Shown in pieces: positions 14,391 to 64,000 of a stretch of DNA of 64,000 nt. The notes beneath the pieces are model-generated. The model worked only from the letters and a program-made list of their open reading frames with translations, was not told where the DNA came from and ran no database searches. The stretch's first letter is position 1. Every line of letters starts with the position of its first letter. This DNA comes from Tetraselmis striata (taxonomy: Eukaryota; Chlorophyta; Chlorodendrophyceae; Chlorodendrales; Chlorodendraceae). The stretch lies in assembly GCA_006384855.1 (NCBI GenBank), contig VCJN01003207.1:1-64000 (forward strand). The letters are read 5' to 3'. Made by a program: the position numbers and the translations under genes.

Positions 14391-14425
<35 letters not shown>

Positions 14426-17400
14426 TTCACCTGAGGGCGAGGCAGCGCAGCTCCTCGTGGTGGCTGTACTGCCGCAGGACGACTCCCGTGTTGTAGTTCC
14501 ACACCCGGATGCTGCAGTCCATGGAGCAGCTGACGAGGTGACCCGACAGCGGGATGACGTCCAGGCCGGTGATCGACTGCGTGTGCCCCGCCAGCGTGCG
14601 CAGGTGCGTGCCGGAGCGGAAGACGCCCCCCCTGCGGGGACGCACAAGGCAGCGGCAGCACCCCGATGCTCAGCGCCGCCCCTGGCTGCGCCAGCTGTCC
14701 GAAAGAGGCAACCACAGTTGCATTCAGGAGGGGAGGAAGGCTGCATCTGCTTGCGGAGGGTTCGAATCAAAAGGGCAGGGGGGGGCTCTACCCCGTGTTG
14801 GGCACCGTGTCCCACATCTTTATGTCCGAATCCTCCGAGCCGGAGAACAGAAAGTTGGCATCCAGCGCCATGCACGTCACCGCCTCGCGGTGACCCACGT
14901 GTTCGCCCAGAAGCCGGAAGCTGGAGTTGCTCCACACCTGCGACATCCGGGCCGCCGGGTCGCCGGGAGTCAGCCATGCCGGCGAGCGCGCCCCGCATAA
15001 TACCTGGACCCCCCACTCCTTACAAGTACAAGATGCCGGTCGGACTTCTTGCACGGGCAGCATGAATGTGGGGGTTGGGCGGAAGAGCACGCACCCGGAT
15101 GAGGTTGTCGTTCCCGGCGGTGAGGATGACCCGCTTCATGGGGTCGTAGAGGATGGAGAGCACCTCCACGCCGTTGTGCGCCTCCCAGCGCGCGATCATG
15201 TGCGGCCGGATGTCGCCCTCCTGCGGACACATGAGGGGCGGTATGGTGTCATGCCAGACACATGGCGTGTGGGGGGCGGTTCGTGTACAGGCCACGTGGC
15301 GTTGACCTCCAGGACGAGGTGGGCGTTGTGCGGGGTCCAAGAAGGGGGGGAAGGGGGGGGGGGGGGGGGGTAATACAGGGTGAGGGGATGCGGCGCCCAC
15401 CTTGCGCACTTCCCACACCGCGACCGTGCCGTCAAAGCTGCAGCTGAACAGGCGCTCCCCAAGATGGCCACTGCCCATGTCTATCTGTCCCACCGTCACC
15501 GCCGACACGGTGTTGGTATGTCGCTTCATGTTGAGCGTGGAACAGAGCTCCAGGTTCCACACGCGCACGTGCCCGTCGTCGTGGCCTGCACCCGTCGGGA
15601 GGGAGGGGATGTCGCATTGCCACAACTCCCGTCAGAGGATCGGTCAGGCAGCATTGAAAACTGCCCCCATCCATGTCGGTATTGACAACGACTCGGTTGC
15701 CATTCGCGCTGCCCCATCCTGTCGATGCGGCAATGTGCGGGTGCCGACGCACTTACAGGACTGCATTCGCCAGCACGCGCCATGCCCTTTCTGGCTCAAT
15801 TATAGTAGAAATAATGACAGATATCGGGGTTTTAAAACCCTAAACCATAGAACCCTAAACCCGAGTGTCAGGACGTCATGCCAACATCCGCATTGGAAAT
15901 GTTCACGCTCCCGTAAGTCCGTCGGAACCCCTAGCGAAACATCATCAAGCCGCCAGGCCCAATGCATCCTGCGGCATTCCTTGACATATCAGGCAGAGGG
16001 AGGAGGAGGGAGCTGCGCAACGAAGGGGGATGACGTGTGAGGGCCACCGCTGCCCGGTTGAGTCCATGGCGACTGTTGCATCACGGACGCCAACGCGGTA
16101 ATGACAACAATGATGACAACAATCCGCTCTGCCTGTCAGAGGTGGAGTCCAGACGAAACTATAGCAAGTGGTCGTCTGTGTTGCATGCAGACCCATTTTG
16201 GAGCCTGTAAAGCAGGGTTCTAATAGTTTGCTAGCCAGCCCTATTTCAGGCCCATAATAGGGGTTGTATAGTTATATTGGCACCCGTAGTTCGATAGCAA
16301 ACTCAACAGTCTACTAGGTTATGAATTCGGCAATTAGAAATCGAAACGAAAATTAAAAACGAGTTGACATTTTGGATTATTTTGATAGAAAACAGACCGA
16401 TAGACCTCAGCCGTATTGCGAATCAATTTCGAAAAACACTAAGTACATTGTTAGAGGTTATGTTGCCCATTCACAAGAATAAGTGCATGGTTTGAAACCT
16501 AGATGGCGATACAGGAATGCGGGCCCATGCACAGCGATAAGACACCGTGAATCATGCTGGCAGCATTCCGCGCTTTCCTTCTACGCGTCAGGTAATCCTT
16601 ATACGGTTAAACTAAACGCGTATTTAATGCAAAAATATATACTGGTAAGGATTACTCAACGCGTTGGGTAAGGATATGGCAGATGTATGTACTGCAGCAC
16701 TTTTTTTTTTTTTTACATTAGGGCTTTAACATATGCGCACTACAAACAGAACTAACAGCAACTACGAAAGGTTGCCAGCAAAAGAGAGACATAAGCCTGA
16801 AATGTATGTACTGCAGCAATATTGCACATGAAGAGTAAGTAATCCTTACTATCGCATCCAACCAATCTATGACGATGGAACCTCAGCAACAATTAGACGA
16901 AGAGAGTAGAGCAGAATAGAAATAAAAGTAAAACGCTGGAAAGTTGGCAAAACACGGCCAGCCCAGGCACCGCCGTTCAAAACTTGCCAACTACTGGTAC
17001 GAGTTTGTGTATATAATAATCTTTATGCTTGAGTTGTATGAAAGTCCTTAGAAGAATGACGACACGCCGCTCAGCCGCTACCAGCTTCGCCTCGTGCGGG
17101 ATAGCGGTAATCGCGTACGGGTACAGCGTGGGCGGGTGCGGGCGGACAGTGGCCAGCCGGCGGAGCAGCGCTGGCGGTCAACTCGGATCGTGACATGACC
17201 GGCGAAAAACACACCGCCCAAAGGTAGGGAAGCTCCAGCAGGGGGCGGACCCGTGATGACCAGCCCAAGGGACTCGAAGATGGTGAGGGCCGCGATCTCG
17301 GACTCCTCCTCCTCCAGCACGCGGATGCAGGCCATGTTGTACGGGTCCCACAGCCGCACCGTGCTGTCCAGCGCTGCACTGAACACGCGAAAGTCCTCGC

Positions 17401-17959
17401 TGTGCGCCCCCTGCGGGGAGCACCCGGGGGCGCGACACGCGCGCTTCTGTCAGCGCCAACCGGCTGCCTGGGCGCACGATCATAAGGCGGCCTCAAATCC
17501 CCTTGCCCCCCCCCCCCCCCCCCCCAAAAAAAACAAATCCCTCTGCCCCCTCAGAGGCGGCGAACCTGGCCGCCCTTGATGGCGTACAAGCAGACGACAG
17601 GTCCCTCGTGGCCGCCCGGCACAACGGCGTAGTCGATGTCGTGGTCGATGTCCCAGTACTCAACGCGGTCCTGTGGCACATTAGGCGGAGAGAAGATGAA
17701 TAGGAGGTGGCAATAGTGTCAGTAGGGCAGGGGCAAGGGGGCGCGCCGGTGGGGGGGGGGGGGGGGGAGCGTAAACAGTGGGCGCACGCTGAAGAGGATG
17801 GCGTAGTGGGTGGTGCCCTCCTGGCGCGTAATGCCCAGGATGGGCTCCTGCCCCAGCCGCTTGGTGCAGATGATGTCGGAGCGGTCAAAGGCGTAGATGG
17901 ACAGGTACCCGTTGTTGTCGACCAAAATGAACTGCGGGCGGGACGGAGGGAGGAGGAAA

Positions 17960-17993
<34 letters not shown>

Positions 17994-20449
17994 CGCAGCC
18001 GTCAGCTAGGGTGCTCGCAACAGGAGTTCATCCAGCGCAGTAGCAGCAGGGAGCAGGCGGCGGCCCGCTCCGGCCTGCCACCCATACACTTTTTCACAAA
18101 CAACAGACAAAAGTAAACCTTGGTGTGGAGGACTTCAAAGGTCGGAGCTTGTCGCAGCTTTTGCACTACCATGACGCGCCCATAAAGTAAACCCTATAAT
18201 CCTAAATAGACGATGTTCTGTGACGCTGGGCATAGGGTGGTCCCTGCACCCGGCGGTATCTAGGAGCGCGCCACACCGTCCGGCACGCCCTGCAAAATCG
18301 TCCGGCGCTCTCCGGCTGCAACTACTATGAGAGCCCCCCCCCCCCCCCCCCCCCCCCCGGGAAGGGACAGCTGCTGTTGTGTGGCACTGGTTTGGGGTGG
18401 GACATGACGCCGCGCCCCCCGTAGATGCATGCACCTTCGCACTTCTGCCCATTGCACTGCAAAACCCCCATAACCCCCTTCACTAGTGGACCGAACGTGT
18501 CTCAAACTCGTAGATTTAGTCATGGCATTCAAATTGCAAGAGACTCCATCCTAAAGCCTACCGAATGGCAAGGATATGCCTCCACGTATGCACTTTGCAG
18601 TACTGCGTTTTGTGCCTACCGAGGGGAAAGGGGTTGACGAAATGACATGGGATGCTGCCACAGTGTTGTGGCAAAGTGCATACACTAGGACGCATGTACC
18701 CTACAAGTTCCGGCCCTTCTAGTGTGAATGCATGGGATTCCATGACATCTCAGCCTGTAGTGCTCCAAAACCATTGGCAATACTGAGGCACACAACTAGC
18801 CCTAGATATTGAAGGGGGGGGGGGGGGGGGTGCAACCCCAACCAAGCGAGGTTGTGCGTACACTTCAATGCGTGCACCACCCAGCCCTACATACGCCGAT
18901 CCACCGGTGGGGTATGCAGCTCCCCCCCGCCTCCGCCTTCCTCCCCCTTGCCTGATGGGGCCGGAGGGGGTTGGGGCCAGCAGTGCGCCGCCCTGCCATG
19001 ATACCCACTCTGTGCCACACAGCGCCATGCCGCGCCGCTCGCACCTGGTTGTACGCCGCCTCGTAAGCGAGGCCGGTGAAGTGGCACCCGTTGGCGTTCT
19101 TCACAGTGCGCTCCAGGATGCCGGTGTACGAGTTAAAGACGGTCAGCGTGTTGTCGTACGACAGCACCGCCACACGGTGGATCTCCGGGATGTAGCGCAC
19201 CATCCTGCGCGCCATCACCCCCACCCACCTCAGCCGGCAGACGGGACACGTGAGGCATGTGGCTGTGGGTGCTGGTTGGCGCGTGCGAGAGCAACAAGAG
19301 AAGGAGGAGTAACTTTTCGGGGGTTGGTGTGAGGGGGTGGGCGCTCACGTGATGGTGCGCTCGTGTACTTTGCGGAACGCCAGCGGGGGGCCCTTCCCCT
19401 CTTGGTAGCGCCCATTGACAGTGAAGGTATACTTCTCAACGCTGCCATGGGCAGGGGCAGCAGGGGCAGGGGCAGGGGCAGGGCTTTAGTGGGGGGATAA
19501 CCGGCAGCGGGCAAGCTTGCGGACGTCCGTCCAGGCAGTTGGCGCCTGAGGGGCAAGGGGGGCCCGGCGGGGCGGGGCGCACAGGTGCATCTCTGGCTCG
19601 ACAATGGCGTCGATGTCCACGCGCACGACGTTCCCGCACTCGTCTGACACAAAGATGAGGCCGAGGTCGGGCGTCTGGTAGGAGCGGCTGAAGGAGAGCG
19701 ACCGCACCCAGCCCTGCATCTCCACCACCGTCGCCTGCGCCGGCAGCGCCATTTGCTGCTTAAGGGTGGGGCATCTGTCGCCATCACCGCTGACCCGGGA
19801 GCGGAGGCACGCCATGCCAATGGGCCGCCAGGGCGGGTGCGGAGTCAGAGGGGGGGGGGGGGGGGGGGGGGCTCACCACCGCCTCATACCAGGGGTAAAG
19901 CGCCTGGTCGCGGCCGGGCACGGCGCGCCAGAGGCGCAGCGTGCGGTCGGTGCTGCCACTGAAGACATAGTCGGCGGTGCGCTGCACGCAGGTGACTGTG
20001 CCGCCGTGGCCATTGAGCGTCTGCAGCAGGCAGGAGCCGGTGTTTTTGCCGGCCTGTGCGGGGTCCCACAGCTTGAGGGTGGCGTCCGCGGAGCCGGTGA
20101 TGAGTAGGCCGGCGCCGACGCGGCCGTCGCGCGCCTGCATGACGTGCATCGCGGACACCTGCCCCTTGTGGTTGCCGATCAGCCGGCGCTCCCCCACGCC
20201 TGGTTCCAGCGCGCGTAGGCTCCAGAACCACACCTGCGACGACTGCATGCCCAGGTACAGCCGCCGCGTGCGCGCCTCGTAGTCGCAGCAAACCAGCGCG
20301 TCCACCCGCTTCGCTTTGGGCCCCAGCTCCGGCTTCCCCACGCCGCGGCGCGGCTCCCACTTGCGCTCCTCCGGCTCAGGGGTGATGCTGAACATGTGCG
20401 AGATCTCGATGCACACCACATCCTCCTCACCCTCGCCGTCGCTCGCCAT
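13289..20449 (-). CDS. Large WD40-repeat protein (two propellers likely)
   Basis: Twelve exons in frame: 19877-20449, 19583-19755, 19349-19441, 19045-19204, 17788-17931, 17566-17670, 17251-17410, 15401-15585, 15095-15220, 14792-14937, 14431-14631 and 13289-13634. The product is 803 aa. The ATG at 20449 follows a C-rich leader. WD40 blades with GH...D and terminal W-D-like dipeptides recur: LITGSADATLKLWDP, VFSGSTDRTLRLWR, VFSAALDSTVRLWDP, LFSCSFDGTVAVWEV, LFSGSEDSDIKMWDT and VSCSMDCSIRVWNY. About 12 to 14 blades suggest two seven-blade propellers. The last exon is serine/proline-rich and probably disordered. Such proteins are scaffolds; resemblance to cilium-linked WDR49/WDR64-type proteins is possible, but I see no EF-hand. 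Two long introns (17932-19044 and 15586-17250) carry repeats, and C tracts follow several donors. Confidence 0.8.
14391..14424. repeat. G34 homopolymer in WD40 intron
   Basis: Thirty-four consecutive G on the plus strand. On the gene's sense strand this is C34, starting directly after the donor GTGAAT of the exon that ends at 14431. Confidence 0.95.
15837..15864. repeat. Two CCCTAAA telomere-like motifs
   Basis: CCCTAAA occurs at about 15838 and again within CCCTAAACCC at about 15853, inside the large WD40 intron. Two scattered copies are not a telomere array. The motif matches the plant/algal-type telomere unit, but chance is a fair explanation. Confidence 0.35.
16326..16540 (+). repeat. 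Dispersed repeat family, copy 2
   Basis: This copy lies inside the 1.66-kb intron of the WD40 gene, antisense to the gene. It shares TTCGGCAATTAGAA at its start, GTTGCCCATTCA in the middle and GGGCCCATGCACAGCGATA at its end with the copy at 2218-2438. Confidence 0.7.
17960..17992. repeat. G33 homopolymer in WD40 intron
   Basis: Thirty-three consecutive G lie in the WD40 intron just upstream (in gene sense) of the exon that starts at 17931. On the sense strand it is C33 about 30 nt before the acceptor. Confidence 0.95.

Positions 20450-21309: not shown

Positions 21310-21310
<1 letters not shown>

Positions 21311-21341
<31 letters not shown>
21311..21341. repeat. C31 homopolymer
   Basis: Thirty-one consecutive C in a C/T-rich spacer. 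No confident gene surrounds this one. Confidence 0.95.
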
Positions 21342-21344
<3 letters not shown>

Positions 21345-21721: not shown

Positions 21722-21784
21722 ACCTTTCCGATTGCCTTTTATTTTGGTGATTTCCGATATCGCCTTCTGCTGCTAGCTCATGTA
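21722..21784 (-). mobile_element. Half copy of MITE family
   Basis: 21756-21784 is identical to the 29-bp inverted repeat of the element at 59644-59755 (contains CGCCTTCTGCTGCTAGCTCA). The adjoining 21722-21755 resembles the reverse complement of that element's interior (GGTGATTTCC and a T-rich run). Only one end is present here. Confidence 0.7.
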
Positions 21785-31564: not shown

Positions 31565-31605
<41 letters not shown>

Positions 31606-32037
31606 GGAGGGGGCTTGCAGCTGCCCCTCAACACATTCAGCCAAGAATATTTATGTAGCGGGGTTGCTACAATGACCTTTTCAACGACCTGCGCAATCAG
31701 TGCGCATTTCGTACGGCTACGTGTGCTGGTTGTGCGGGCCCGCTATACAGCTCTCAGCTTCCACTGCGTATCTGGGCCCGGCAGTGTCCTTCTTGAAGCC
31801 CCTATACATGCACGCGCGCCTGCATGTAATTGCTGTTGTTTATACCGCCGCCTCTCTGGCCATGCATGATCCGCGGAGTGACCTGACGTGCTGCCCGCCG
31901 CCCGTCTTCCCACTCAGGCGTACCTCCCCGAGCTGTACGAGAAGGGGCCCACCACATGCAAGCCGGGCGCCACACTGGTCATCCAGGTTGACGAGCGCCG
32001 CTCGCCGGTGCCCAACCAGCCGGCGCCGGTGGTGTAG
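29152..32037 (+). CDS. GLYK: D-glycerate 3-kinase (photorespiration), N-term unresolved
   Basis: The enzyme phosphorylates D-glycerate to 3-phosphoglycerate with ATP, the last step of the photorespiratory cycle, in the plastid. Supported exons, all in frame: 29442-29469, 29579-29817, 29973-30055, 30185-30275, 30405-30610, 30786-30918, 31097-31210 and 31918-32037. They give 337 residues to the stop. The P-loop is clear (GISAPQGCGKTT), followed by SISVDDFYLTNKDQ, then RVPRYDKSKFSGRGDR, VVLFEGWMSGF (Walker-B-like), YVYKWRLQAEEAMRATG and FMPAYKAYLPELYEKGP, in the normal family order. An upstream exon at about 29190-29289 (ending ATLRATPQAE) fits by phase; earlier exons and the transit peptide are uncertain. 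At least five introns have C runs just behind the donor. The last intron holds a G38 tract. Confidence 0.88.
31458..31482. repeat. (TG)n microsatellite in GLYK intron
   Basis: A run of TG dinucleotides lies in the last intron of the glycerate kinase gene. Confidence 0.85.
31567..31604. repeat. G38 homopolymer in GLYK intron
   Basis: Thirty-eight consecutive G on the sense strand, the longest homopolymer in the window. It lies mid-intron rather than at a donor and has opposite polarity to most other tracts. Confidence 0.95.
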
Positions 32038-49486: not shown

Positions 49487-52436
49487 GCTAAGTTGGCACG
49501 TCGCAGCGTGTCTGCAGGTTTGGATATTGAGTGCGGCGAGTCCTCCACCGGCGAACAGGCTGCGTTGTGCGAGTGCGAGATGCTTGAATATGGTATTCTA
49601 TCGTCGGTACTAGTCGCTACGTGCTGGGTCGCTACCGGTACCGCGGCACCTGCGCCGGCGACGAAAGCAGGGCGGCCTGCTGCTGCTGGCTATCTGTAAG
49701 GATTAGTCGTAGCCGCGGGGTGGTGTATGATATATGGTACACCCCTCCACATAAGTTTGGGGTCCTTTTTGGCTGAATATGAAATGAAAAATACTAGGGC
49801 ATCTAAACGTAGGGCTTTAGGGCTAGAACCCGGGAATGTTTTAGGTTGTTATAAAACCTTTTGCTTGATAGGGTCTGAATTATAACCTAGTACCCTAAGA
49901 ATAGGGTATTGCGATCTGGCGCGGGGCTCAAAGGGCATGACGCAGTGATGCACAACAATACATGTTATTGGCACATATATAATGGCCCACATGCATAGAG
50001 CATTGTATGGTGCAATGCCCGTAGATGTGTGAGGAAACATAGTAGCTCGCGAGTTGGGTGGGTTTGGGTGGGCATAGTCACGTAAGGCAGAGTGGGCACA
50101 CGTGCGTGTGACGATGCTAGGACCAGTGCAGTTCTGCCCACTGCAAGCGACACCCCCTTGACTTCAAACGCTTATAGCGGCTCAGGGAGTGCTCCAAAAA
50201 TTCTAAAAAAATGCGCAAAAAAATCCTTGCGTCAAACGCGAGAGGTAAATTTCTGTTTTTGAGCACCTAATTTGCACGTTTTGACCACTTTCTAGCGATG
50301 AACATAAAATACATCAATCACGGCATCATTTCGCAACACTCAGCCTCAACATGGGGGCGTAGCTTTGCGCTATGTGTGTCCCCTTACTCCATACGCATTT
50401 GTGTGACAGTGTTATGAATGTAGATGCACACGGGCGGCGCAAACTTGCCACATGCTCCCTCTCTAGCCATGTCCTCGATGGCCAACAACATTATGTTGTT
50501 TTCAACATATTATGATTGCTGACATTCAAGCATTTAATAGCGCGCTGCTATGTGGCATTCAACTTGTGATTCGGCGCAATTGCCATGCGTGCACGTGACC
50601 CCCATTGATGCGCTCTCGCCTAAGCCAAGGAGGGCTCAATAAGCCTTTCATGCGTGAGTAGGCAACAATACCAGCACCATTTTTGCTTTGGCCGAAAATC
50701 ACGCCATGTAGTGGTGAAACTGTAATTTAGGGCTTGTGCAATACCCTTAGTGACCTAATCTTGGTGCCCCACACATGTTGCAGGTGAAACTTACACTAAA
50801 GATGGCAGCATGTCAGTACGGCGTGGATTTGCGCGTTGGATGTATGCGTACGAAGGGATGGCGCAACTTGTTATTTTCCAGTGCAAGTTTTACACGCATT
50901 GATTTGCCATTTCTCGAGGGGCGCAGAATGACGCATGCCATGTCACACGGTTAGGCCTAGAGCGCGCCCCCATTTTTTCCCAAGTCGACCTCGCCCTTAG
51001 TCACTTGCATGCAATTGCCCACGCCGTATTTTCTACATGACATGCGCATGTCGAACAAAACTGCAAAACCAAAACTTATGTGGAAGGGTGTATATAGCGT
51101 CAGCATGGTCGCGTGGCGCCGGAATATACTGTCCCACAAAAGTTCGCCCTGTGCCTTGTCCCACAAAAGTTCGCCCTGCATGTGCGCGCATCGCGCTGGG
51201 CACTAGCATATGGCGAAAACACGGATACAAGTAGTCTTTTACTTAGAATACCGAAGGTTAGCTTCCGTGACCTTGCTTTGGTTGCAGCGCACTCTCCGAA
51301 ACATCGCACTGATGCGTCATTTTCTGTACAGGTAGTGTTTTTTTTGCCGCTTTTCAACAGAAAATGGCACAATACGATATTGTACGCGTTCCAGCTTCAT
51401 GGGGCTGCGCCTGCCCCCAAGCTTTTACGCACGGATAATATGATAGCAAATGAATAAATTATGGGAGTATCGTGCCATTTGGGTGATGACGTGGCATCGC
51501 AGCCGTGCACGCGCCACTACCCCTACTGTTTTGTCAGTGCTCGAAAGGCCTAAAATTGTAGTTTATTGGCAGCATAACCCGCGACGTGCTATCTGTCCCA
51601 AACTTCACCATGTGGATAGCCGAATATCAAAGTCCGTCCCATGCACTGCTGCCACAACGCAGCGCGCGAGGTTCGGGAGGAAAGATAGGCATTGTGCCAA
51701 AGCACCGAATACTGCGAAATCGCACAGAAATTCCTACGCATTGCGAGCAAAAAAATTCTACAGGTTTGGGGAAACGCTACAATGAAGAGTTGTGTGTTTA
51801 CTTGAGAGTAGAGACCTATAGTGAGCTTAAGTCTGAGGCACTATGGGTTGCACCTAGGTGCCCGTTACTTACGGGGCCTAACATTGGGCTCGAAATTTGA
51901 AAACGACATGTTTTGGGGCTCCCAGACCCCTGCAACGTTAGCAAATGGCAATTCTGAGCGCGAAACTTCGGGCCATGCACGTACCAACTGAAAGCGTTTT
52001 TCCCATGCGCTTTCCAACGCGACCTCTTAATACGCCTCAATTCGACACCGTTGCACGAATATATATATGCCTCTTGATATACCTCCCAAAACTGCAATTG
52101 CAACAATTGCTCCAACACTGCCGGCGCTCAGGTTCATGTACCCTCTCGCGAAGAGACTCATTGTTACTCAATAAAATCACGGAGTGCTCGCATGACACCA
52201 CTGTGTCAGCGAATTTGGAAGAATATCGCACCTATACTTGCCCAAAACCGTTACTTATATGATCCGAACTTGCTTACAATGCTAAAAATGGGGTGATGTT
52301 GCGGTTATTGTTATACCGCTTTATCACACACTTCTCCGCGCCAAAAACAACCGAATTTTTTCGATTTAAGACGATGCACTCAGTGGCTATTGACTACTGC
52401 ACCCGCGGATGGTTGAATATTTGGGAATGGGACAAG
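49487..52436. other. Gene-free AT-rich region
   Basis: Nearly 3 kb without a believable exon; frames are short and their translations lack motifs. A short direct repeat with TCCCACAAAAGTTCGCCCTG lies at 51131-51150 and 51160-51179. Probably decayed mobile DNA next to the transposon. Confidence 0.5.
51131..51179. repeat. Two-copy 20-bp direct repeat
   Basis: TCCCACAAAAGTTCGCCCTG occurs twice, 29 bp apart start to start. Confidence 0.75.
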
Positions 52437-52614
52437 ATTATAGCGTAAACGGTAGAGGCCACTATACTTCACTTATGAGTCACTGAAAATGGGACAGTTT
52501 ACTAGCTTTAAACCCTGTGCAGGTTTTTAGGGTTCGCGTGTACTGGCACAAAGTACATGATCACTTGGTGGCGGCGGAACGAGGCAAAGGCGGCGGGTCG
52601 AGGCAGGTTCTCCG

Positions 52615-52638
52615 AAGGTAGGTAGGTAGGTAGGTTGC
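52615..52638. repeat. (GTAG)n microsatellite
   Basis: About five GTAG units lie between the left TIR and the transposase start. Confidence 0.8.
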
Positions 52639-52723
52639 CGCGAAGTCGGGGCAGTTCTCCGCCTCCCACACCTGCCTAACCGTTCTCGCTGAAACAAGTA
52701 GGAAGTAGGGCTGCGGGGTCAGT

Positions 52724-54051
52724 ATGGGTTCCCCCTTGCGGACTATCGACGAACTTGGCGCTGCACTTGAGCGGGCGGAGGCACTTCTTCAAGCGCATGA
52801 GGGAACGTTCGGTAGGGAAGTTCTTCTCGAGATGGCAGCAAGTTGTATCGGGTCTGCCGTCGGCCGGCCCGTCTCCTCGCGTGGGGCAGCATTGCGTGAT
52901 GTTGCGACCTTCGAAGAGTCGTTAAGGGGGGGTGCCCAGCGCCCCACTGCGTCTTTGGCCGAAGTAGTGGCGTCTAAAGAGGGTGCCCCAGGCAGCCCCG
53001 GCATGCAAGGCAGCGCTAGGCGTTCCGACACGGCAGTTGCAGGCGCCCCACGGCCCACCCCGGCTGAGGCTGAGGTACAACCACACCATATCGGTAGTCA
53101 CTGGCTTCCTGCCGAAGACGGCCACACTGAATATGCCGACTACAAAGCGGTCAAGTCGGTGATCTCAGGCCTCCCTACTAAATGGCGGTTTTTGTATGCC
53201 TCGGCGGCTACAAAGGTATGCTGCCCCTCGTCAAATAATTTCCGCGTGCAGGTAGCATTCACCTGCGGTCGAACCAACGGACCTCTGTTTGTTTACAGGT
53301 GTACCAGTGCCGGCAGCATGTAGCTTGCCCGGCCCGGATGCGCGCGGTTGTCAACAAGCAAACCGGCAGGTGGGAGTTGCAGTTCAGCAACGATGTTCAC
53401 ACGACTACACTTGTCGATATCCGTGGTGGGGAGGGTGTACCTCAGTCGCTTCGGGGCATACTGCAGCCGCTCCTGCTTCGGGGAATGTCGCCAAAGAATG
53501 CGTTGGAGCATGTACCACGCTCGACCATACGCGCTGCCGGAGTCTTGGATGGCATGCGGCCCCAGCTCCTAACTCAGCTACGGCGGTGGAAAAAGTATTT
53601 GATCAAGCTCGGCAAAGGAGCGTTTCAGCTCACATCTTTTCACGATCTGCGCGAGTGGGCCGAGTCAAAGGCATTGCCATCAGGGACTGCGTTGGATAGA
53701 GTGTCAGAAACTGACTTGGTTGTGCTCCGAGACGGAGTAGATGAGGAGTCGAGTGCTGTGGCGTTTTCTTCACTCGAGCTCTTGACCACGCTTCGGATGG
53801 CTTTGCTTTCTGGACTGCCCTTGCACCTTATGACTGACGGCACGCACAAGGTGTCGTTCAACAAGTGGGTCCTTCTGACAGTCGGCACGACTACGATCAG
53901 AAAATCCAGCTTCAAACGGAAACTCGTCAACACGTTCTTGCCAATTGCGTTTTGCTTCGCTCGCTCTGAGACTGCGCCTGCCTTTCTGACACTCTTTCGG
54001 GGTCTCTCGCTGGTCCTTTGCCTTTCGCCGGGTCTCGGTGGATGGGGTTGA
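52724..54051 (+). CDS. Truncated MULE-type transposase
   Basis: Two exons, 52724-53215 and 53299-54051, joined in phase 0 (413 aa). The N-terminal ~140 residues are unrecognised, with low-complexity linkers. Exon 2 opens with a Cys/His cluster (VYQCRQHVACPAR ... VHTTT) like the FLYWCH/WRKY-GCM1-type zinc fingers of Mutator-like transposases. Helical DNA-binding sequence follows, and then the start of a DDE catalytic core: LMTDGTHKVSFNKWVLLTVG, with the first catalytic Asp in TDGTHK, and LPIAFCFARSETAPAFLTLF after it. The frame then runs into a stop, so the second Asp and the Glu of the triad are absent. Downstream frames do not restore them. The enzyme is therefore probably inactive. Confidence 0.72.
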
Positions 54052-55463
54052 CTGCCTATGCGGCAATGTTTTGTGTCAGTTTCACGCGCAAACTAATTCG
54101 CCGGCCGGGACATGAAGCAATTACCACTCCATGCCTGACGAAACAGAGACAACTAAGTAAAGGCGGGAGGGGGGGGGGCGTACTGCCACATCCGGCAGTC
54201 CAAATGTTGCGGCCCTAGAGGTACTCGGGCCTGCCTCGTCGGGTGGGGGTACCTGTCGCACAAGGTTGACACGACGATATTTGTGTTTGGTTCCCGCCAT
54301 TCCGTTAGTTCCGAAGGAGGACAGAACACATTCGAGACTACCCAATAATAGCACGCGGGGTGGTTGTGGAAGGTGGGGCGCACTGCCACGGGCGCAAAAA
54401 TACTTCGCGCAGCCCTAGAGGTACTGGGTCCTGCGTCGTCCTTTGTTGGAACCTGTGGCGGGGCAGATTACATGCAAGAGTGTTAATTCATGAACCACCA
54501 TGCCCCCCCCCCCCCCACACACACACACACATCCCGTGTATTCCATAGGTCTTACCGTGCGCATGGATGTCTCGCCTTTAGCCTCCGAGCCTGTGGTATC
54601 CGGTACGCCCTCACCCCGGCCTAGTACGGGCGCATGTCCTGAGGGTGTGACTGCCGACGCGCCGGCTACCTGCCCGCCGCTCTCGCCAGCGTTGCTATCG
54701 CCAGGCGTAGCAACCAAACCGGCTCCATCGCCAGCTGCAACCAAGCTGCTCGGCAACCTTTCTGCCGCTGACGGGCCCTGACCCTGACCCGCCACTGACT
54801 GCGTGTCGGCATGTCTACGTCCAGCGGCCAGGGACGCCACGCGACGGGAGCGTCGGGCAGGTCGAGCAGACACAGCCCTTGGCCGAGAGGGTCGGGCGGG
54901 CCGGCTGGCGGACTCTGGTGAGGGTTGTCGCGTGCGGGGGGGGGGCTGTGCTAGGCAGCTCCAGCGGGATGGGGCCTACACCAGCCTGCACGGCAGTAAG
55001 TAAGGGCGTGAGCTGCGACTCTCGATAGGAAGTAGGGCAGGAGGGATAGGGACGCAGGGACGTAAGAGGCGGCAGCATCCCTACTCACCAGCCGTGCAGA
55101 CCTACGCCGAAGGTAGGCGGAGTCCATTCATGTCACGGATCCGGGCGTCTCCGCCATTTTATGAAAGTTAAGACCCCGCAGGCCAGTGAGTGTCGCGTGG
55201 GATCCTATGAACGGCTGCCGGCCACGGTTTGGGTTCTGGGGCGGCCTTGGCGGTGGTGGAAAGGTAGTGGTACTGCGCAGCCCCCCCCCCCCCCCTCCAC
55301 TCGAGTGGGCGGGAGAAGGGATGGCGGCGGCGACGGCGAGTACAGTACTTTGCGCTGTATATGTATGTCTGTAGTACATTGTTTGGCGCGTGAGCTAGTA
55401 AATTGTCCCATTTTCAGTGAGTCAAAAGTGAAGTATAGTGGCCTCTACCGTTTACGCTATAAT

Positions 55464-58400
55464 ATTGCGCTTTTCTCGGTTGAATGGCATCCAATAATAT
55501 TGCCGTATACATACCCACGCAACAGTGAATTCCCGCGTGTTGTGAGATTTGGGCGGGGGGCGGGGGCGGGGGGGGGGGGGGGGGGGGGCGGCAGAAACTA
55601 CCGCACCCACATATATATATACTATATGAAACCATATATATATCACCATATTCTTAAGTAGGTAATCATACGGTATGTATTGTGAATGAATGTATTATCA
55701 GAAATACTGCAGTGCGCTGTTGCTATATATGCTAGCACTGATATGCGGGCGGTCTCATATCCGCGTTATATCGTCATCGCACCGCACTAGAATGTCGGAA
55801 TTTGCGTAATAAATGACCCGCTTTATCGGAGCAAATTTTGAACGCGGCCAATTTTCGCAAAACTCTTCGGCAGAGTTGGAAGACCTTTTCAAAACATTGT
55901 GAATCTGCCATTACAAGTCAATTTGGACATTTCCTCATCCCACCCCACTTCGCAAGGTCAAGTATTGCATGTGTACTGCACACTCATGTTTTCCGGGCAT
56001 AATCTTGTTGTCCGTTCTGATTCCCTGACACTTTCAATTGGTTTTCGCATGCCTTAAAGTGCCTAATATACCCACCGGACCGAGTTTCGATTGGACATGT
56101 TTATCATGAATTATGCAATGCACGGATTTTATTTAGCACGTAGTTGTGGTCCGCCCTTTTGCTTAAGTACTTAGGTGCCACAACTACTAGTCTAGTGGCA
56201 TTCGACCCTGCCTCGACTGCGCCGCGGTCATAGGCGTCCATCTCAGAAGTGCTTGCCAGTAGCGACTAGTATCAGTATCCCCGTGGATGCCGGCATCCGC
56301 CACATGGCTAGCGGTGTCCGTGACGCCGCCTTCATCCAGTGAATGAACGACACCCTCCCGAGATTCCTCCACTGAAATCTCCGACATCAACAGCCCCCGC
56401 CCTTGTTTTCGTTGACCCATAGCTCGAGCCCGTGCTTGGCCGAGGCAGCTTCAACGCAACTTACTCCACCCGCTAGTACAATCACTTCATCAACAATGCA
56501 ACATGGCCTGCTACACCACGGCGGTGTGCAAGGCGTGGGGGCGCCTTCATGCGACTACTGTTGGCCACCTCAGCGATGCGAACGCCCGTGTGCTGGAGCG
56601 GGAGGCGAGGTCGCGCCGGACTCCACAGAGCCAACGGCATGCCTAGACCAAGTCAAAAACTCCCGGCTGACTTTAGAAATGAGATGAGCACTCTCCTTGT
56701 CACATGCAGGGGACGGAATGATCTTGTCGGGCAGTCGGGCGTGTGGACGGTAGTGGCCATCCCAACCGCGCGAACGGTCTTGACTCCGCCGGACGGTCAT
56801 GACTCTGCGGGGGAGAGAGGGCGGTGAGACGCTGCCGGGTACTTCTTTTTGCTTAGCCCATGCTTGGCCCCGGTGGTTCGGAGCGAGATCATCTTGTCAT
56901 GGAAAGAGCACAACAACCCCTGTCACTGCGAGTCGACATCTAACTAAGGCGACGCGCTCATGAACCATCCGGCACATGGAGACGCTCACTGGTTAGTACA
57001 GCACGATGCTATCGCATACGCATATCGCAATCAACGCTGTGTTCACGATCTGGGCCTCGTTGTTTGCGGGGAGGTGGGTGACTTGTTTCAAAAAGCGGTG
57101 CCTCTCGGCAACACTGTATACCCAGGGATGAACTCAAGGATGGGTGCCGGATGCATAGCTCTCCCTCCCGGCCTTCAACGCCGCGACCGGGAGCTATGAT
57201 TCTCGGAGCTTGAAGCCCACGCCATTGGAGTTCAAGACTAAGACAGTTTTTGATACGGGGTCAAGTATAATGCGGTGCCCCGGGCCACAGCTGTATATCG
57301 ATCTGAGCGCTCCATGTTTGGCGACATGCAACGGGGGATGGCAGCGCGGAATACGGCGTGGCACAACACCGACGGGGCTGGGGCAGCATAAGCGCGGCCC
57401 ATTTCGAGACATCTTGGACATGTCGTGATGCCGGAGTACACGGGCATGGTCTTTGGCACAGCGGGTGAGGTGAGCAAGGGGGTGCGCTGCACGGTGCGCG
57501 CTGTCGTGTGCTTGGCCGCGGATCGGGGTGCACTTTCATCGCGCGGGGCACTCGGTGCACCACCGGGGCTCACCAAGAGGCCTTCGAGGCCTTATTCCTA
57601 AGAGATTTCCTCGGAGTCTTGAGCTTGATGGCGGCTGAAGAGCGTGCTCGCTGCCTCATCAAACGGCGCAGATTCATCCGCCATCCTTTTGCCGAAGCTG
57701 CACGGCGTGTCCGTGGATTACCCTTGCACATCCCAGACTCTCAATTGGGCGCGCATCACTCATCCATCCCGCCTCGTGCGGGATGCCGGCCGCTTTTATG
57801 CGGCTTTGGTTGATCTTTAGTACTGCGTTTTTAGCAGTGGATTACTAATGGACATAATGTAGTTCACACAAGTATCACCAACAATTTACACCAGTCCACA
57901 TAAGTCTTTGCGCATAGAAATTTGCGCGTATCCTCGCCTCGGTGCCGAAGCCATGGGGCCACGGGGGCATGGAGCCTTGTAATCCAGTGTCTGCAAGCCT
58001 CCTACGCCAAGGAGGCAGCCGTTTCTCCCGGGTATCGCACTTTGACATTGTTCTTTGGCAATGGGATTGCATGGCATATGGCTAAAACCTCAGAAAAAAC
58101 GGGCGATGAATAGTGGCAACTTGTTGGCGGCGTAGCTACCATCCGTCGCATATGCCCGCGCGCTGTCGGTGGTGGGTGGACGTATGCATGCGCTGTAAGA
58201 CGACCGAGCTTGAGCCCAATCCATGCGCGCTACCGATGCAATGCTTGGCATTTCCCTTAGAGTGTGCCAGTAACCATGTCGTCGTGATGGGGCTAATCAT
58301 CCCCCAATTTTCCAAGCTGCAAGATAAGCGCCGTTGGCCGCGCCTCGCTGGGTGAAAGTAGCACACATAAAGTGCCTTCGATTCCATAGGTGCTTGCCTA

Positions 58401-59643
58401 TACCGCCCGCACCGTAGCGGGCTAAGCACGGGCTGGCCCCCTCGACCACAATGTCGCCCATGTTACACATGTCTGCGTGCATGTTATCACACATGTCATC
58501 CATCATCCAAGGGGAAAAGCCAAGATGATGACGTGGTCCGCGCGACGTGGAGACCTATCCAAGGGGTTCTCGCGCCTAGGAGCTTGCGTGGAAGGGCACA
58601 TTACATGCCCCCATCATGCGCCCCCGCCCACAGTGAGTGGGTTGGCTGGGATACCGGAACATGGGGGAACTTTGACAGGCCATAACATCCCGACGTTGTA
58701 TTAGACTGGCCTGTGCATTAGTGCGTCGGAAAGCGCAGGTCACGGGCTTTCCATTGCACTAATTTACAGCCCGATATGATAAAACGCCGAAATGCTATGA
58801 ATTAAAACTTGATTATTGCAATATATAGGACTGATTCTTGCAGGGCGAACAACCGGTTTGCGAATGTCGCATGCAGCCCGCTAGCTGACCATAGACTCCA
58901 AACCATGCGCCGCGCGGCATGGGGTAGGTGGCCAACACATGTATCTCGGCGACCATGGGAGAAAAACACGGTTCTTTATGTCCAAATGTCGGCGTGCCGT
59001 GCGCTCAAACCGTTTAGAGCCCGGCCGTGCAACACTTGTTACACTGGTAGTGCCGCAAGACAGGCCACGCGCGCGCCACCGCATTGGCCTTAGCATACCA
59101 TGTGCACGCTCTTTCACGGGTATCCTCTCAATGGCTGCAACTACGTAGACTATGCGTGGGTTTACCGACTAGAAGCGACCAAACCCAAATCATACCCATA
59201 GAAACATGCAGAGACTTTTGTGGGATGTTGTACATTCCTTGTCCGCTCATCAGTATGTAGTTCAGCGTTGGTCTCGAACTCATCCAAGTTGTCCCATGTT
59301 GGATTCCTGGTCGATGTATTTCGGCAATATATCGGCGGCCCGGCGGGTCCCGGGTTTACGCATTGAGTCCTTCGGGGTTTGAGTGAGATGGTCCATGAGG
59401 AGAACGGCCACGCCAGACCTACGACTGCCGGTTGGCGTAAGCAGAGGTCATAGGGACGCTGCAAGGGTTTCACTGGTACCAGTCCTGTCACGGGGGCGAA
59501 AGAAAAAACAAAAAAAGATGTCACTTGCTGGGGCGGCTTCGGCCGCTGTCCCGAGGCGAACTGTACAGTAGTCGCTACCTTTCTTTGTCTCATCTATACT
59601 GATTTCGTCTAGGAGTGTGACACCGCCTAGCTAGTACTATAAT
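55464..59643. other. Gene-poor region
   Basis: A G tract lies at about 55571-55588, followed by a TA-rich stretch. Frames at 56400-57810 are moderately GC-rich, but none shows a motif or splice-consistent continuation. 58100-59200 is similar. A diverged SINE copy closes the region. Probably old mobile DNA. Confidence 0.5.
59233..59566 (+). mobile_element. Second, diverged SINE copy
   Basis: Aligns with the SINE at 21930-22169: CCTTGTCCGCTC at the start, GGATTCCTGGTCGATG at the decayed B box, TTTCGGCAATAT, GCCAGACCTACGACTGC, and the tail GGGGCGGCTTCGGCCG. It carries an extra ~60-bp A-rich stretch near 59470-59525. The B box has lost its consensus and no clear target duplication remains, so this copy is older. 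Confidence 0.75.
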
Positions 59644-59755
59644 TACATGAGCTAGCAGCAGAAGGCGATATCAGGAAATCACCAAAAAAAAAGGACAATC
59701 AGAAGCTAGTACTATCAGGGGTCTCCGATATCGCCTTCTGCTGCTAGCTCATGTA
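59644..59755. mobile_element. 112-bp MITE with perfect 29-bp TIRs
   Basis: 59644-59672 (starting TACATGAGCTAGCAGCAGAA) is the exact reverse complement of 59727-59755. The 54-bp interior includes an A9 run. A 13-bp direct repeat containing ACTATCAGGGGT lies at about 59711-59723 and 59758-59770, around the right arm. One arm plus part of the interior recurs at 21722-21784. Confidence 0.8.
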
Positions 59756-60005
59756 TTTACTATCAGGGGTGACCCCTGGTACTCTGAGAAAACAAGCAAA
59801 ACAACCCAGCCATCATCAGACTCTTGACCCTCTCCCTGTAACCAAAAAGTATGTCAGACCCTGGCTCGACTGCTGCGACGTCACAGCAGCCCACACTTGT
59901 CGCCGCGGCGGCACCCTCCTTCCCTTCCTACCCGCGTATACGCTGGGATATACTGCGTGCACTCAGCCCCTCCACTGCTTTGCTTCCAGGAGCGCGCACG
60001 CGTCC

Positions 60006-61499
60006 ATGTCGTGCGTGGCGGTGCTGGCCGGACATCCGCCGGCGGCGCCGTCCCGTCGGGCGTCGTCGATCAAGGTAAGGAGACACGCGCAGCCGGCGGG
60101 CCGATTGGCGGGCACCGCTGGCGACTGGACAGCTGCGTGGACATATGGGGCGTCCAAGGGGCTTCGGAAGACACAGGTATGGGCACACCAGAGAGCGCCG
60201 GCCAAGGCAGAGGCGGCGCGCAAGGACCGCCAGCGCATCCGTGGCGGCGCTGATGGCGAAGGCAGTCTCGGCGGCGACACAGCCGGCAAAGGCGCTTCGC
60301 GTCGACTGCACGCCCAGGCCACGGCGGCCGCCAAGGCTGGGCGGACCCCCAAGGCGTTGGAGCTGCTGGCGCAGGGGCGCGCGGCCTTCCCGCTCGACAA
60401 GTTCTTCGCCATCTCGGCCGCCCACCTTCTGCGCCGGCGCGCTCTGCCGGCGGACGTCCGCGAGGCGCGCCGCTTGTACGCCGCCGCTGTGGAGCTGGAC
60501 CCCGCGGACTCACGCACGCTGCAGGTGAGACTGGACCCCCGCCAGCGGGGAAGGACGTCAGACGAGGGATTTTCCTCACCAGGCACCTCCCTGCATGCGC
60601 CGCTCTCTCAGGCATGGGCGGTGCTGGAGTCCAAGCACGGCGACGCTGCCGAGGCGTCACGCCTCTTTGCCGATGCTGTGGCTGCCGACCCGTCGCACCT
60701 GGCGGCGCTGCAGGCATGCCCCTCCTCCCACCCCCTGCAGCGAATCAGCGCCGGCATGCCCCCCCCCCCCCCCCCCCCCACTCCCCTTCCCCATCCCTTC
60801 AGTGCAGCTATGCCGGCATGCACTGGCTGACATGGGGCCTGGACAGGCGTGGGGGTTGCATGAGCAGGCGGCCGGCAACGCGGAGCGGGGGCAGGAGCTG
60901 CTGAAGCAAGCAGCAGAGCGGCATAGCCCGGAGGCGCTGCAGGTGAGCCAGCTCCAGCGCAGGCCTCCCCCAGGCCTCGCCCGCGCGTTCGACCCCTGGA
61001 GCTGAGCATGGCGGAGGGGCGGTCATGCTACAAAGGGACGCGCAGTGCCACCAGTAGCAGCGCATCTACGCTGAAGCGCAGGATGCATCCCCCAGGCATC
61101 CGTCATCCGCCTGCGGCGCCATGGCTGAGCACATGCACTGAGCGCGCAACGCCTTGGGGTCACGAGCGTGCTTCAGCGCTTAGCTGCAAGTGGATGAGGC
61201 AGTTTGGAAGTGGGTGTTTGCGCAAGGAGCAGGAGAAGGGGTATAATCCCGGGAGGGAGGGGGGGGGGGGGGGGGGAGGTCAAGAGAGGAGGGGGGGAGG
61301 GGGGTCTTGCACGGTACCACCGCCATGACATCCCGCAGGGGGCTCCTCTGATGGATGAATGCGACCAAGGAGCTCTGGGTTGCCGATGCTCATACCCTTT
61401 CCCTTTCGCACCCTCTCATCAGGCGCTGGGGCAGGCCGAGGAGCGCAGCGGGAAGCACAAGGCGGCTGCCAGGTGCGCTGGAACCCCGGATTCCCCCTC

Positions 61500-61530
<31 letters not shown>

Positions 61531-64000
61531 AACTACATGGGCTAGTCGCCATGTTAGGGCGAGAGGAGGACAGGCAGTCAGCGCGATGCTTGAATGGGCT
61601 TTGGCACGGACATAGCAGCCTCCTGAGCACAGCCCCGCCGCGCCTGTGGGCTCGGCCATTCCCGCCGCCCATTGGAGCAGACTGTACACGCAGGCGACAG
61701 AGGCAGACGCGCGACACGGACCCTCCTGGACGGTGAGCCCTCCTCTCCCTCCCCCCCCCCCCCCTCCCTCCTTTGCAGTGAGAGAGCCCTTGCTGGTCAG
61801 GCTGATGTCTGTCCGCGCCCTCCATGCCAGGCTTGGGCGCTTCTCACCGCGCGCTTGGGCGCGATTGGCAAGGCCCGCAAGCTCTTTGACGCGGCGCTCG
61901 CAGCAGACGCGCAGCCAGCCGTCCCGCTTCTCAACGCCTACGCCCACACAGAGGTGCCCTCCTACAGTGCCCCCATGCCCTGCACTCTGCACATGCCACT
62001 CAGGTGATGGCTGTGCGTGGGGGAGGGGCGGGGGGGGGGGGGGGGCTGTCCCCGGTGAGGGATCTCCGGGCTGTTGTTATGGCGGATTGGGCGGAGGCGT
62101 GGGTGCGCCACCAGCCCTCAGCTCAGATCAGTCAGGGGGTGGGAGAGTACCACTCTGGTCTGGGGTACGGAGGGGTTCCAGGCAGGTGGCATGGTGGCGG
62201 CCCTTAGCAACCCCCCCCCCCCCCCCCCGCTCCCTTCTGCCCCTTACCCCCCCCCCCCCCTTCTCTCCCTGCCCGGTGGTGGGCCGGGGGGCGCAGGCGC
62301 GACACGGCGGACTCTCCAAGGCGCGGCGGCTGTACAGCCAGGCCCTGGAGCTGGAGCCGGGGCGGGTGGAGTCCCTGCTGGGCCTGGGCGCCCTGGAGGT
62401 CGGCGCCACCCCGCAGCCCCTCCCGCAAGTGCCTTCCATATCCTGCCTAGGGCGCTATCACAAGGATCTAGTGCTGGTTGTTGTGGAGGTTGCTGCGGTG
62501 GTCTCATTTGATCCCGTGTATTATCCGCTTGCGATTGTGTCATCCCGGGGCGGCAGGCGCGTGCCGGGAACGTTCCCAAGGCGGTCGCGCTGTACGAGAA
62601 GGCGCTGGAGACGGAGCCGTGCAACGTGAAGGTATGGGGGGAACCCTCGTGCCTCCTCCGCCCCTTCCTCCTTGACTCCTCGCGCTACTTTGTTTGGGGC
62701 TGCTCCTGGTAGCTACTTCAGCCCAAGTGTGGGACATAGCATGGCTGACAGCGCAAGCTTTCCCTGCAGGTGCGGCACACGCTGGCGCAGCTCCATGTGC
62801 AGCTGGGAGACGATGAGGTGCGCCCCGCCCCCCCCCCCGCCCCCCCCCCCCCCCAGTGCGGCCGACATGACCGGGAAGTGGATGTGTGGGTTCAGAAAAG
62901 GCTGGGTGTCTTGAGCTTCGGAAGAACTCTGCTCAGCGTCCTGTGGTTGAGCGCTCACGCGGGAGGCAACTTCGCGGCAACGGCACGCTCATCACGATGG
63001 GTGGCGAGTGCGGGAGGGATGCATACTATGCGATGGCGTGATGGCGTGTGGTTGAGCGGGTGAGGGCGCGGTTGGCGGGGATGCATGCGCAGAGTGCGAG
63101 GCGGATTCTGGAGGAGCTGCTGGCCGGGGCGCCCGGGAACGCGCGCGTGCGGCGCAGCGCGGGCGAGCTGGCGCAGGGGCGCGGGGAGTTTAAGGCCGCC
63201 GCGGCGCACTACCAGGCGGGGATGGACAGCCCGGGTGCCCCCCCCCCCCCCCCCCCTTGGCCTCTGTCGCTGTCACGCCGCACCAGCCACCGTCATCAAG
63301 GGGCAGCTGGAAGGTTGCGTGGCACCTGTCTCCACGCAACCTTCCAGCCCCCCCTTCTGCCCTCCCACGCTGACTCTGCCTCCCCCCCCACCCCCCAACC
63401 ACCCCCCGCCGCGCCTTGGCGTGCACTGCATGCGGCAGGCATGGACGCTCTGCTGTGCTTTGAGGCCTATGCCGGCCTACAGGAATTCTTAGGTGCCGGC
63501 GCCCGCTCCCTGGCTCGTGTTCCTCGCACCCCCTCCCTCCCTCTGTCACCATCCACGTGCTCAGTCCTATCATTGGCCTGGCCAGGGCAGTCCTGTGCCG
63601 CCGTTCAAAGGCACCCGCAGCGCTTCACTATGTCGCAACAGCACCGCTGGAGCTGACGCAGCATGCGGCATCCCCCCTCCCCCCCCCCCCCCCCCCCCCC
63701 CACCCCCTCCCTGTCCTTCGGCGCTTTCCTGGGCGGCCAGGTGAGATCGACGAGGCGAAGGCCGTGTTCCGGGCGGGCGAGGCCCGGCTGCCAGGCGGCC
63801 GGCGGGGCGCCCCCAGCCAGCGTGGCTGCCACGCCACGGGCCGCTTCCTGCGCATGTGGGCCCTCTTTGAGCGCCGCCGCGGCAGCTTCCAGGTGCCCCC
63901 CCCCCCCCCCCCCCCCCTTACCTTCCCCCCATGAAGCTGTCCTCAGCTGCCGTGAGGCTGTCCCTCTTTCCCAGCAGTCCCGTTGGAAAGACGGTGCGCT
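60006..64000 (+). CDS. TPR/HAT repeat protein, plastid RNA-factor-like, partial
   Basis: Exons in frame: 60006-60074, 60192-60524, 60612-60713, 60847-60942, 61423-61472, 61681-61732, 61831-61953, 62297-62398, 62557-62631, 62770-62817, 63057-63234, 63439-63492, 63741-63892 and 63975-63993. The gene runs past the window. The ATG at 60006 gives a short transit-like MSCVAVLAGHPPAAPSRRAS before a GTAAGG donor. At least nine half-a-TPR units follow, with aromatic and acidic anchors: AWAVLESKHGDAAEASRLF, AWGLHEQAAGNAERGQELL, AWALLTARLGAIGKARKLF, ARRLYSQALELEP, AVALYEKALETEP and MWALFERRRGSF. Exons often begin at a repeat boundary. The style matches HCF107/Mbb1-type proteins that stabilise or process plastid mRNAs, but this is inference. 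One intron (60714-60846) would need a GC donor, and the acceptor before 63057 is weak. Confidence 0.7.

Follow-up and report, generated by a model that had tools for sequence, protein, structure and literature searches.

Cytosine homopolymers cluster directly behind 5' splice sites in introns of the green alga Tetraselmis striata

What places long, pure cytosine runs directly behind the 5' splice sites of a genome, and what keeps them there? The question is raised by a stretch of 64,000 nt from the green alga Tetraselmis striata (assembly GCA_006384855.1, contig VCJN01003207.1, positions 1 to 64,000; here called the window), in which a preliminary description had noted C runs on the sense strand of many introns, close to the donor (5' splice site). 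The window contains 33 C and 20 G runs of at least 9 nt, compared with 2 A and 1 T runs (53 C/G against 3 A/T). Throughout, C and G runs are counted from 9 nt up, and a run belongs to the donor zone if it starts no more than 40 nt from the 5' splice site. Our analysis confirms that poly-C behind 5' splice sites is real and extends past the window.

Spliced alignment of four proteins to the DNA defined the exon ends and gave 32 introns in three genes identified via homologues: 10 in a glycerate kinase gene (GLYK), 11 in a TPR gene and 11 in a WD40 gene. GLYK and TPR were aligned with P0087 (jgi/Tetstr1 TSEL_035613, 404 of 406 whole codons identical) and P0207 (TSEL_040645, 491 of 502 whole codons), gene-catalogue models whose supporting evidence is not known. 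WD40 was aligned with P0002 (390 of 392 whole codons identical) and P0001 (454 of 709 codons identical, with some exon ends less certain). The latter two most likely derive from transcripts, since they come from small contigs (at most 1287 and 2376 bases, respectively) that read intron-free. Two introns with C runs are spliced out in P0002.

The 32 introns contain 23 sense-C and 5 sense-G runs, and the donor zone holds 15 of the C runs, spread over 14 introns, and one G run. Random placement of the runs puts 5.5 ± 1.9 C runs near donors; a count of 15 was not reached in any of 5000 trials. A C run within the first 60 nt is present in 14 introns, against 0.4 (maximum 3) when run-free sequence is shuffled and 3.0 (maximum 8) when the runs are kept during shuffling. 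The 15 donor tracts start 2–34 nt into the intron, 66–756 nt before its end. An excess on the side of the acceptor (3' splice site) was not seen in these introns, where 5 of the 23 C runs end within 60 nt of the acceptor and 8.1 are expected. Branch-point-like YTNAY words are found 10 times at 20–40 nt before acceptors (5.0 in shuffled sequence), and no excess of them exists 20–40 nt behind donors (2, with 3.9 in shuffled sequence). Of 44 introns predicted in the window outside GLYK, TPR and WD40, two have a C run in the donor zone; the three genes chosen by the preliminary description are thus the run-rich ones.

To look beyond the window, which is positions 1–64000 of contig C2591 in a sampled genome of 224,097,584 bases and 2903 contigs, 20 stretches were drawn at evenly spaced contig numbers. 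Six of these do not exist, the contigs being too short, and 6 extra stretches, picked blind to content, adjoin those of four long contigs. The sample totals 195,453 bases from 14 contigs. A gene finder trained on the window alone predicted 170 introns in it, 120 of them with well-supported exons on both sides. Ten of the 120 lie on C2280, a contig of 293 kb with dense reading frames and a G+C content (GC) of 0.63–0.67 (stretches L231, L236 and L237), whose translations include what we take to be purH-like and rlmN-like proteins. This contig is likely a bacterial contamination of the algal assembly and was excluded, leaving 110 introns on 12 contigs.

These 110 introns contain 42 C and 13 G runs, and 22 C runs and one G run lie in the donor zone. 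Random placement gives 7.4 C runs at donors, with none of 5000 trials reaching 22, and a stricter prediction threshold leaves 79 introns with 18 C and no G runs at donors. On the acceptor side, 4 of the 42 C runs end within 40 nt. To hide the runs from the gene finder, every C or G run of at least 6 nt was overwritten with random bases; the three replicates then gave 21–22 C and 1 G donor runs in 108–111 sample introns (C2280 again excluded), and in the window 48 introns had 10 C runs and one G run at donors. These near-equal counts rule out a bias of the gene predictor, and the placement, shuffling and sample tests together rule out chance or base composition as the cause. The count by donor distance and strand, which the preliminary description had proposed as a check, therefore upholds the enrichment in the sample, and its proposals that the polarity follows transcription and that the runs lie close to donors are supported in both sets (22 C to 1 G and, in the window, 15 to 1).

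Pooling the 32 window and 110 sample introns gives 142 introns, whose donor zones hold 37 long C and 2 long G runs in 5538 bases. The remaining intron sequence holds 28 and 16, respectively, in 41,551 bases, and an intergenic sample contains 26 C or G runs in 71,445 bases, or 142,890 bases of strand. Long sense-C runs thus amount to 6.7 per kb in the donor zone, 0.67 in the rest of the introns and 0.18 per strand in intergenic DNA, so that the donor zone exceeds intergenic DNA about 37-fold per strand and the rest of the introns 10-fold. Counted in steps of 10 nt from the donor, C-run starts number 9, 16, 6, 6, 1, 1 and 4 (152 introns, including the run-free ones of C2280). The sample without C2280 contains 74 C/G runs in 55.7 kb of intron. 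No run is found in 38.3 kb (38,340 bases) of predicted algal exon, and the predictor itself tends to avoid runs in exons. The bias towards C on the sense strand points to a force on intron repeats that acts at the RNA level or is linked to transcription.

One such force would be asymmetric tolerance, in which runs appear in any non-exonic sequence, but those reading G in the pre-mRNA are purged because they would form G-quadruplexes or R-loops or cause mis-splicing. The run-free exons and the 28:16 ratio of C to G in the rest of the introns agree with it. So does Caenorhabditis elegans, where, according to the accessible part of one report (PMC2211496), G/C homopolymers are abundant and mostly non-exonic, with G more often on the non-coding strand than on the coding strand (84 versus 47); a similar reason is proposed there. 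The Tetraselmis homopolymers resemble the Caenorhabditis tracts in being far above chance and rare in exons, and in preferring C on the coding strand of introns (23:5 in the window, 42:13 in the sample); the Caenorhabditis bias is similar to the mild one in the rest of the Tetraselmis introns. A major difference can be observed at the donor. The location of the Caenorhabditis tracts inside introns is stated to be unbiased in the same source, whereas in Tetraselmis the first 40 nt hold 37 of 65 sense-C runs (15 of 23 in the window and 22 of 42 in the sample, with 5.5 and 7.4 expected) at a C to G ratio of 37:2. This donor-zone ratio is the new part relative to C. elegans. The Caenorhabditis tracts depend on the DOG-1/FANCJ helicase for their maintenance. 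Purging of G cannot raise C, and the roughly 37-fold density over intergenic DNA means that tolerance alone is insufficient; we consider this explanation unlikely. Loss of G runs would account for the polarity but not for the excess over intergenic DNA, which leaves C-specific selection or tolerance on the RNA, or mutation tied to transcription and exon ends.

The nature of the tracts themselves helps to frame these two options. Short C runs of 4–8 nt are also commoner at donors (80 in 5.5 kb, against 244 in 41.6 kb of remaining intron), and relative to short runs, long C runs are 4.0 times as common there as in the rest of the introns (odds ratio 4.0, P = 1e-6; for G, 0.94). Part of the donor excess of long C runs can be put down to composition and short runs, but short runs do not explain it fully. 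In the 32 introns, C-run lengths are bimodal, with 4 runs of 7–10 nt and 23 of 11 nt or more, as would be expected if the repeats had passed a threshold for expansion; the pure tracts measure 9–34 nt.

Much of the window has a diverged second copy on contig C2431, either an allele or a duplicate. The GLYK stretch is 97 percent identical, the TPR stretch 90 percent and two others 96 percent; a search with the WD40 stretch found no copy of that kind. Judged from the coordinates, the part of C2431 that corresponds to 31000–37400 is about 12.9 kb longer than in the window, and the part that corresponds to 47800–61833 is about 3.1 kb shorter. In GLYK, 84 of 1978 intron positions and 9 of 1211 exon positions are substituted between the copies, and in the TPR region 143 of 2420 noncoding and 17 of 1209 exon positions.

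We compared 32 of the 53 window runs with this copy, leaving out stretch L247, which did not align, and the runs at 20917, 21302 and 21311. Runs of at least 9 nt are kept for 12 of 14 donor runs (11 of 13 with the split run 62828/62840 taken as one; two of the 14 depend on the GST gene model), 9 of 13 other sense-C runs and 4 of 5 sense-G runs; stronger retention of donor runs is not seen. The length is unchanged in 2 of the 25 kept runs. At 30921, one copy has GT-C15 and the other GTGCCCCTCCTCCTCCCCC, a pure and a mixed tract in the same place. The copy also contains a C23 at the donor of intron 60943 that is missing in the window, a further C22 and, beyond the window end, a G23. The tracts therefore behave as fast-changing repeats at largely fixed places, in every class. 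The earlier expectation that homopolymers of this length must be tolerated or renewed fits this picture, since the copy shows runs that were kept, altered in length, lost and newly present.

The two copies also bear on the possibility of a sequencing or assembly artefact. Some long-read data are prone to errors in homopolymer length. The copies, however, have their tracts in the same places and twice at identical length, errors cannot know the strand of transcription, and 30 kb of the bacterial-looking C2280, from the same assembly, contain no C or G run of 9. An artefact is thus very improbable. Nor do the tracts appear to travel with introner-like mobile introns, which would explain why one feature is common to many introns. 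After masking of runs of at least 5 nt, the sole match at E ≤ 0.01 among the 32 introns measures 14 nt (E 0.009). As the introns share no further sequence at this threshold, we discarded introners, whose probability we regard as minimal.

We tentatively favor a model in which DNA slippage extends C runs behind the 5' splice site into pure tracts of 9–34 nt, which are kept where the pre-mRNA reads C and are nearly absent where it reads G (37:2). Slippage is suggested by the length changes, by the mixed C/T and pure tracts at one place and by the gains and losses between copies. C-rich RNA beside the donor would help, or at least not harm, early recognition of the splice site, and G runs in this position would be removed. 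The probable binder would be a KH-domain poly(C)-binding protein of the PCBP/hnRNP K type. Selection on RNA may thus retain the slippage-grown tracts, perhaps as a splicing enhancer for such a protein. We prefer selection at the RNA level because the splice site defines the place of the tracts and because a C-rich enhancer on the donor side emerged from a screen of SMN2 exon 7. There, as far as the accessible part of the report goes, poly-C of four or more behind the donor is described as a strong enhancer class, depletion of PCBP1/2 lowers the inclusion of exons with C-rich motifs beside the 5' or 3' site, and the authors, citing Ji et al., point to PCBP1/2 (PMC8789036). Tetraselmis shares with the mammalian PCBP/alphaCP elements a C-rich sequence that adjoins the splice site, here the 5' one. 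The mammalian elements differ in that they are short motifs at alternative exons, with alphaCP acting at 3' tracts, in the portions of the sources available (PMC8789036, PMC4797308), whereas the Tetraselmis tracts are pure and 9–34 nt long. A more far-reaching version, in which a donor-side polypyrimidine tract is read by a poly(C)-binding protein during intron definition and slippage provides a length-variable, allele-specific tuner of splicing in a large share of introns, seems rather doubtful.

The tracts could also be the product of transcription-linked mutation that brings no benefit. Slippage would be more likely, or biased towards expansion, where the template reads G past exon ends, for example because the polymerase pauses or the non-template strand is open. 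The 4.0-fold ratio of long to short C runs at donors, the different lengths of 23 of the 25 kept runs and the equal persistence of all run classes in the second copy support this explanation. It gives no reason why the first 40 nt should be affected rather than the whole transcript, and elsewhere in the introns the C to G ratio is 28:16. We consider it possible, though on the unlikely side. The functional step of the selection model is one that we infer, and this mutational rival is close behind.

Several observations weigh against selection for a splicing role. No donor-zone run is present in 18 of 32 window and 90 of 110 sample introns, so the tract is not required. The 20 run-bearing sample introns all lie on five contigs (C880, C1580, C1860, C2140 and C2700), and the stretches of four of these have a GC above 0.6. 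Counted without gene models, the donor motif [ACG]AGGT[AG] precedes 18 of 100 C runs and 12 of 100 G runs in the sample, a weak signal (P 0.32), with 4 and 9 for the reversed motif; the window counts are 12 and 8 of 53 runs for C and G, with 4 and 3 for the reversed motif. Once runs of at least 6 nt are masked, C and G frequencies in the window introns are 0.475 and 0.242 at positions 7–20 and 0.321 and 0.305 at positions 61–90. The corresponding sample values of 0.373 and 0.256, and 0.344 and 0.265, indicate a slight, nearly flat skew, and a C-rich donor side outside the long runs is thus clear in the window only. Donor C, other C and G runs are not distinguished by how often they persist in the second copy. 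Donor strength is not lower in introns with a run in one comparison (means 2.71 and 2.70, P 1.0), and in a second one it is higher, although not significantly (2.87 with and 1.82 without a run, P 0.07).

The donor strengths leave the rescue of weak donors by C runs unsupported. A related idea is avoidance of RNA structure, by which G-poor sequence would leave the donor unpaired. Replacing the run by G lowers the mean predicted accessibility of the donor from 0.305 to 0.235 in 15 introns, but the drop is not significant (P 0.15). Random filler gives 0.295 (P 0.56), deletion of the run 0.332 (P 1.0), and 17 run-free introns have a mean of 0.274. Predicted pairing therefore shows no significant difference from the controls, and structure avoidance appears improbable. 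The suggestion in the preliminary description that the tracts affect donor choice finds no support from either weak-site rescue or predicted structure.

C-rich intron segments are known from other algae and protists, according to the accessible parts of the reports: Euglena gracilis has a C-rich 3' polypyrimidine tract (PMC11170887), and the 3' ends of Chlamydomonas introns are enriched in C (PMC2830987). As in Tetraselmis, C replaces U in a pyrimidine-rich segment of the intron. Those are features of the 3' splice site, however, and the long pure runs of Tetraselmis cluster at the 5' side; the donor tracts do not lie between branch point and acceptor, where a 3' polypyrimidine tract belongs. 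In the literature searched, by title and start of abstract and with most subscription journals outside its coverage, we found no treatment of donor-side poly-C homopolymers.

Poly-C introns appear to occur in a second eukaryote. A GTDB bin labeled 'Verrucomicrobiaceae' (JAIYDP01, MAG H1_MAG_00039; L096, L171, L181; G001) holds eukaryotic-looking contigs with what we take, from the translations, to be kinesin-like and other intron-bearing genes. Its poly-C is mainly a 3' tract behind a branch-point-like TGAC, with 58 raw matches to TGAC9-N0-30-CAG and 16 to the reversed pattern. A few donors on L096 appear to run into C (CAG-GTT-C14, AAA-GT-C15) and one into G (CAG-GTG9-like, L096:2597). This bin adds a further point against the favored model: it has no donor excess, with 25 distinct CAGGT-C12 and 18 CAGGT-G12 in a hand count (42 and 29 raw; 45 and 55 for the reversed patterns). 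Poly-C introns therefore do not generally take the donor form. A scan of genome contigs for a donor-like word followed by C14 found at least 119 stretches with one match each; among the matches listed, 16 loci have at least four C/G runs. Nine of the 16 were inspected, and three (one bin) look eukaryotic and six look like stretches of low complexity. In viral contigs, a donor-like word with C14 or G14 occurs in 39 and 53 stretches, showing no preference for C, and a search of viral-contig proteins with GLYK found no relative.

The individual tracts of the window are listed in the table below.

C and G tracts near splice sites in the window, with their counterparts in the second genomic copy on C2431
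Tract	Position	Strand	Location	Basis	Second copy
C17	28816..28832	+	10 nt into GLYK intron 28806-28983	P0087 alignment	C20
C12	29484..29495	+	14 nt into GLYK intron 29470-29578	P0087 alignment	C12
C21	29852..29872	+	34 nt into GLYK intron 29818-29972	P0087 alignment	C19
C12	30073..30084	+	17 nt into GLYK intron 30056-30184	P0087 alignment	C16
C11	30630..30640	+	19 nt into GLYK intron 30611-30785; second run C15 at 30658-30672	P0087 alignment	C11, C14
C15	30921..30935	+	right after GT of GLYK intron 30919-31096, donor CAG/GTCCCC	P0087 alignment	C/T tract, no run of 9
C18	61499..61516	+	26 nt into TPR intron 61473-61680	P0207 alignment	C21
C14	61751..61764	+	18 nt into TPR intron 61733-61830	P0207 alignment	C11
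C11-G-C15	62828..62854	+	10 nt into TPR intron 62818-63092	P0207 alignment	C20
C19	63238..63256	+	3 nt into TPR intron 63235-63438, donor GTGCCC	P0207 alignment	C20
C22	63896..63917	+	3 nt past TPR exon end 63892	P0207 alignment	C18
sense C22	19850..19871	-	5 nt into WD40 intron 19735-19876	P0001 alignment	
sense C17	17751..17767	-	20 nt into WD40 intron 17671-17787	P0001 alignment	
sense C18	15353..15370	-	30 nt into WD40 intron 15221-15400	P0001 and P0002 alignments	
sense C34	14391..14424	-	6 nt into WD40 intron 13635-14430	P0001 and P0002 alignments	
sense C22	37516..37537	-	7 nt behind predicted GST donor 37544	gene model only	no run of 9
sense C17	41706..41722	-	19 nt behind predicted GST donor 41741	gene model only	20
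C21	25996..26016	+	44 nt behind predicted PAP/fibrillin donor 25952	gene model and Pfam PAP_fibrillin	C18
sense-G20 (counter-example)	17506..17525	-	40 nt into WD40 intron 17411-17565		
sense-G38 (counter-example)	31567..31604	+	356 nt into GLYK intron 31211-31917	P0087 alignment	absent
opposite-polarity runs	47175/47217		NHL-BTB gene	gene model	

The runs reported earlier behind the donors 19876, 14430 and 17787 (WD40), 29470, 30056, 30611 and 30919 (GLYK) and 61473, 61733, 62818 and 63235 (TPR) are all present in protein-aligned introns, and those at donors 28806, 29818 and 15400 can be added to them. The opposite polarity described for WD40, for the GLYK G38 and, by model, for NHL-BTB was found as well. 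Three other cases stand in part. For the GST donors 41741 and 37544, the C runs are borne out by the gene model alone. The fibrillin run exists, but the donor named for it, 25967, is unconfirmed. For the TPR donor 63893, both the exon end and the C22 are borne out by P0207; the next residues, AARELF, are absent from all three forward frames of 63893-64000, and the acceptor therefore probably lies beyond the window end. The runs at 30921, 63238 and 63896 start at the third or fourth base past the exon and thus stand in for part of the GTGCG or GTGAG that is usual there.

Other features of the window were noted. Pfam hits on its gene models comprise PsbP, Sua5/YrdC, PAP/fibrillin, MYND-TPR, GST, FKBP and NHL-BTB, with one of eight proteins lacking a hit. 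On the minus strand, CAG/GTAT is followed immediately by a C23 at 11136-11158, where no gene model exists; this could be an unannotated donor. Five other C runs in the 32 introns lie 27–39 nt before acceptors. The sense-C runs 31055-31069, 17960-17992 and 60759-60779 are located 27–28 nt upstream of acceptors, two of them with an upstream CTGA word, and it is possible that they are 3' polypyrimidine tracts. Segments 38280-38734 and 46123-46586 are dispersed repeats, with copies of about 76–78 and 69–74 percent identity, respectively, in many contigs among the best 40 candidates for each.

If selection keeps the runs, and if the sample with its 20 run-bearing introns among 110 is representative, a single genome would contain a very large natural set of variants of one intronic element. 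With the built-in strand control of C versus G, the role of C-rich sequence at the 5' splice site would then be directly testable. If mutation makes the runs, they would point to a mutator that is specific for strand and position and tied to exon ends, and this would be equally surprising. Either way, homopolymers of up to 34 nt beside donors matter for annotation and possibly for allele-specific splicing.

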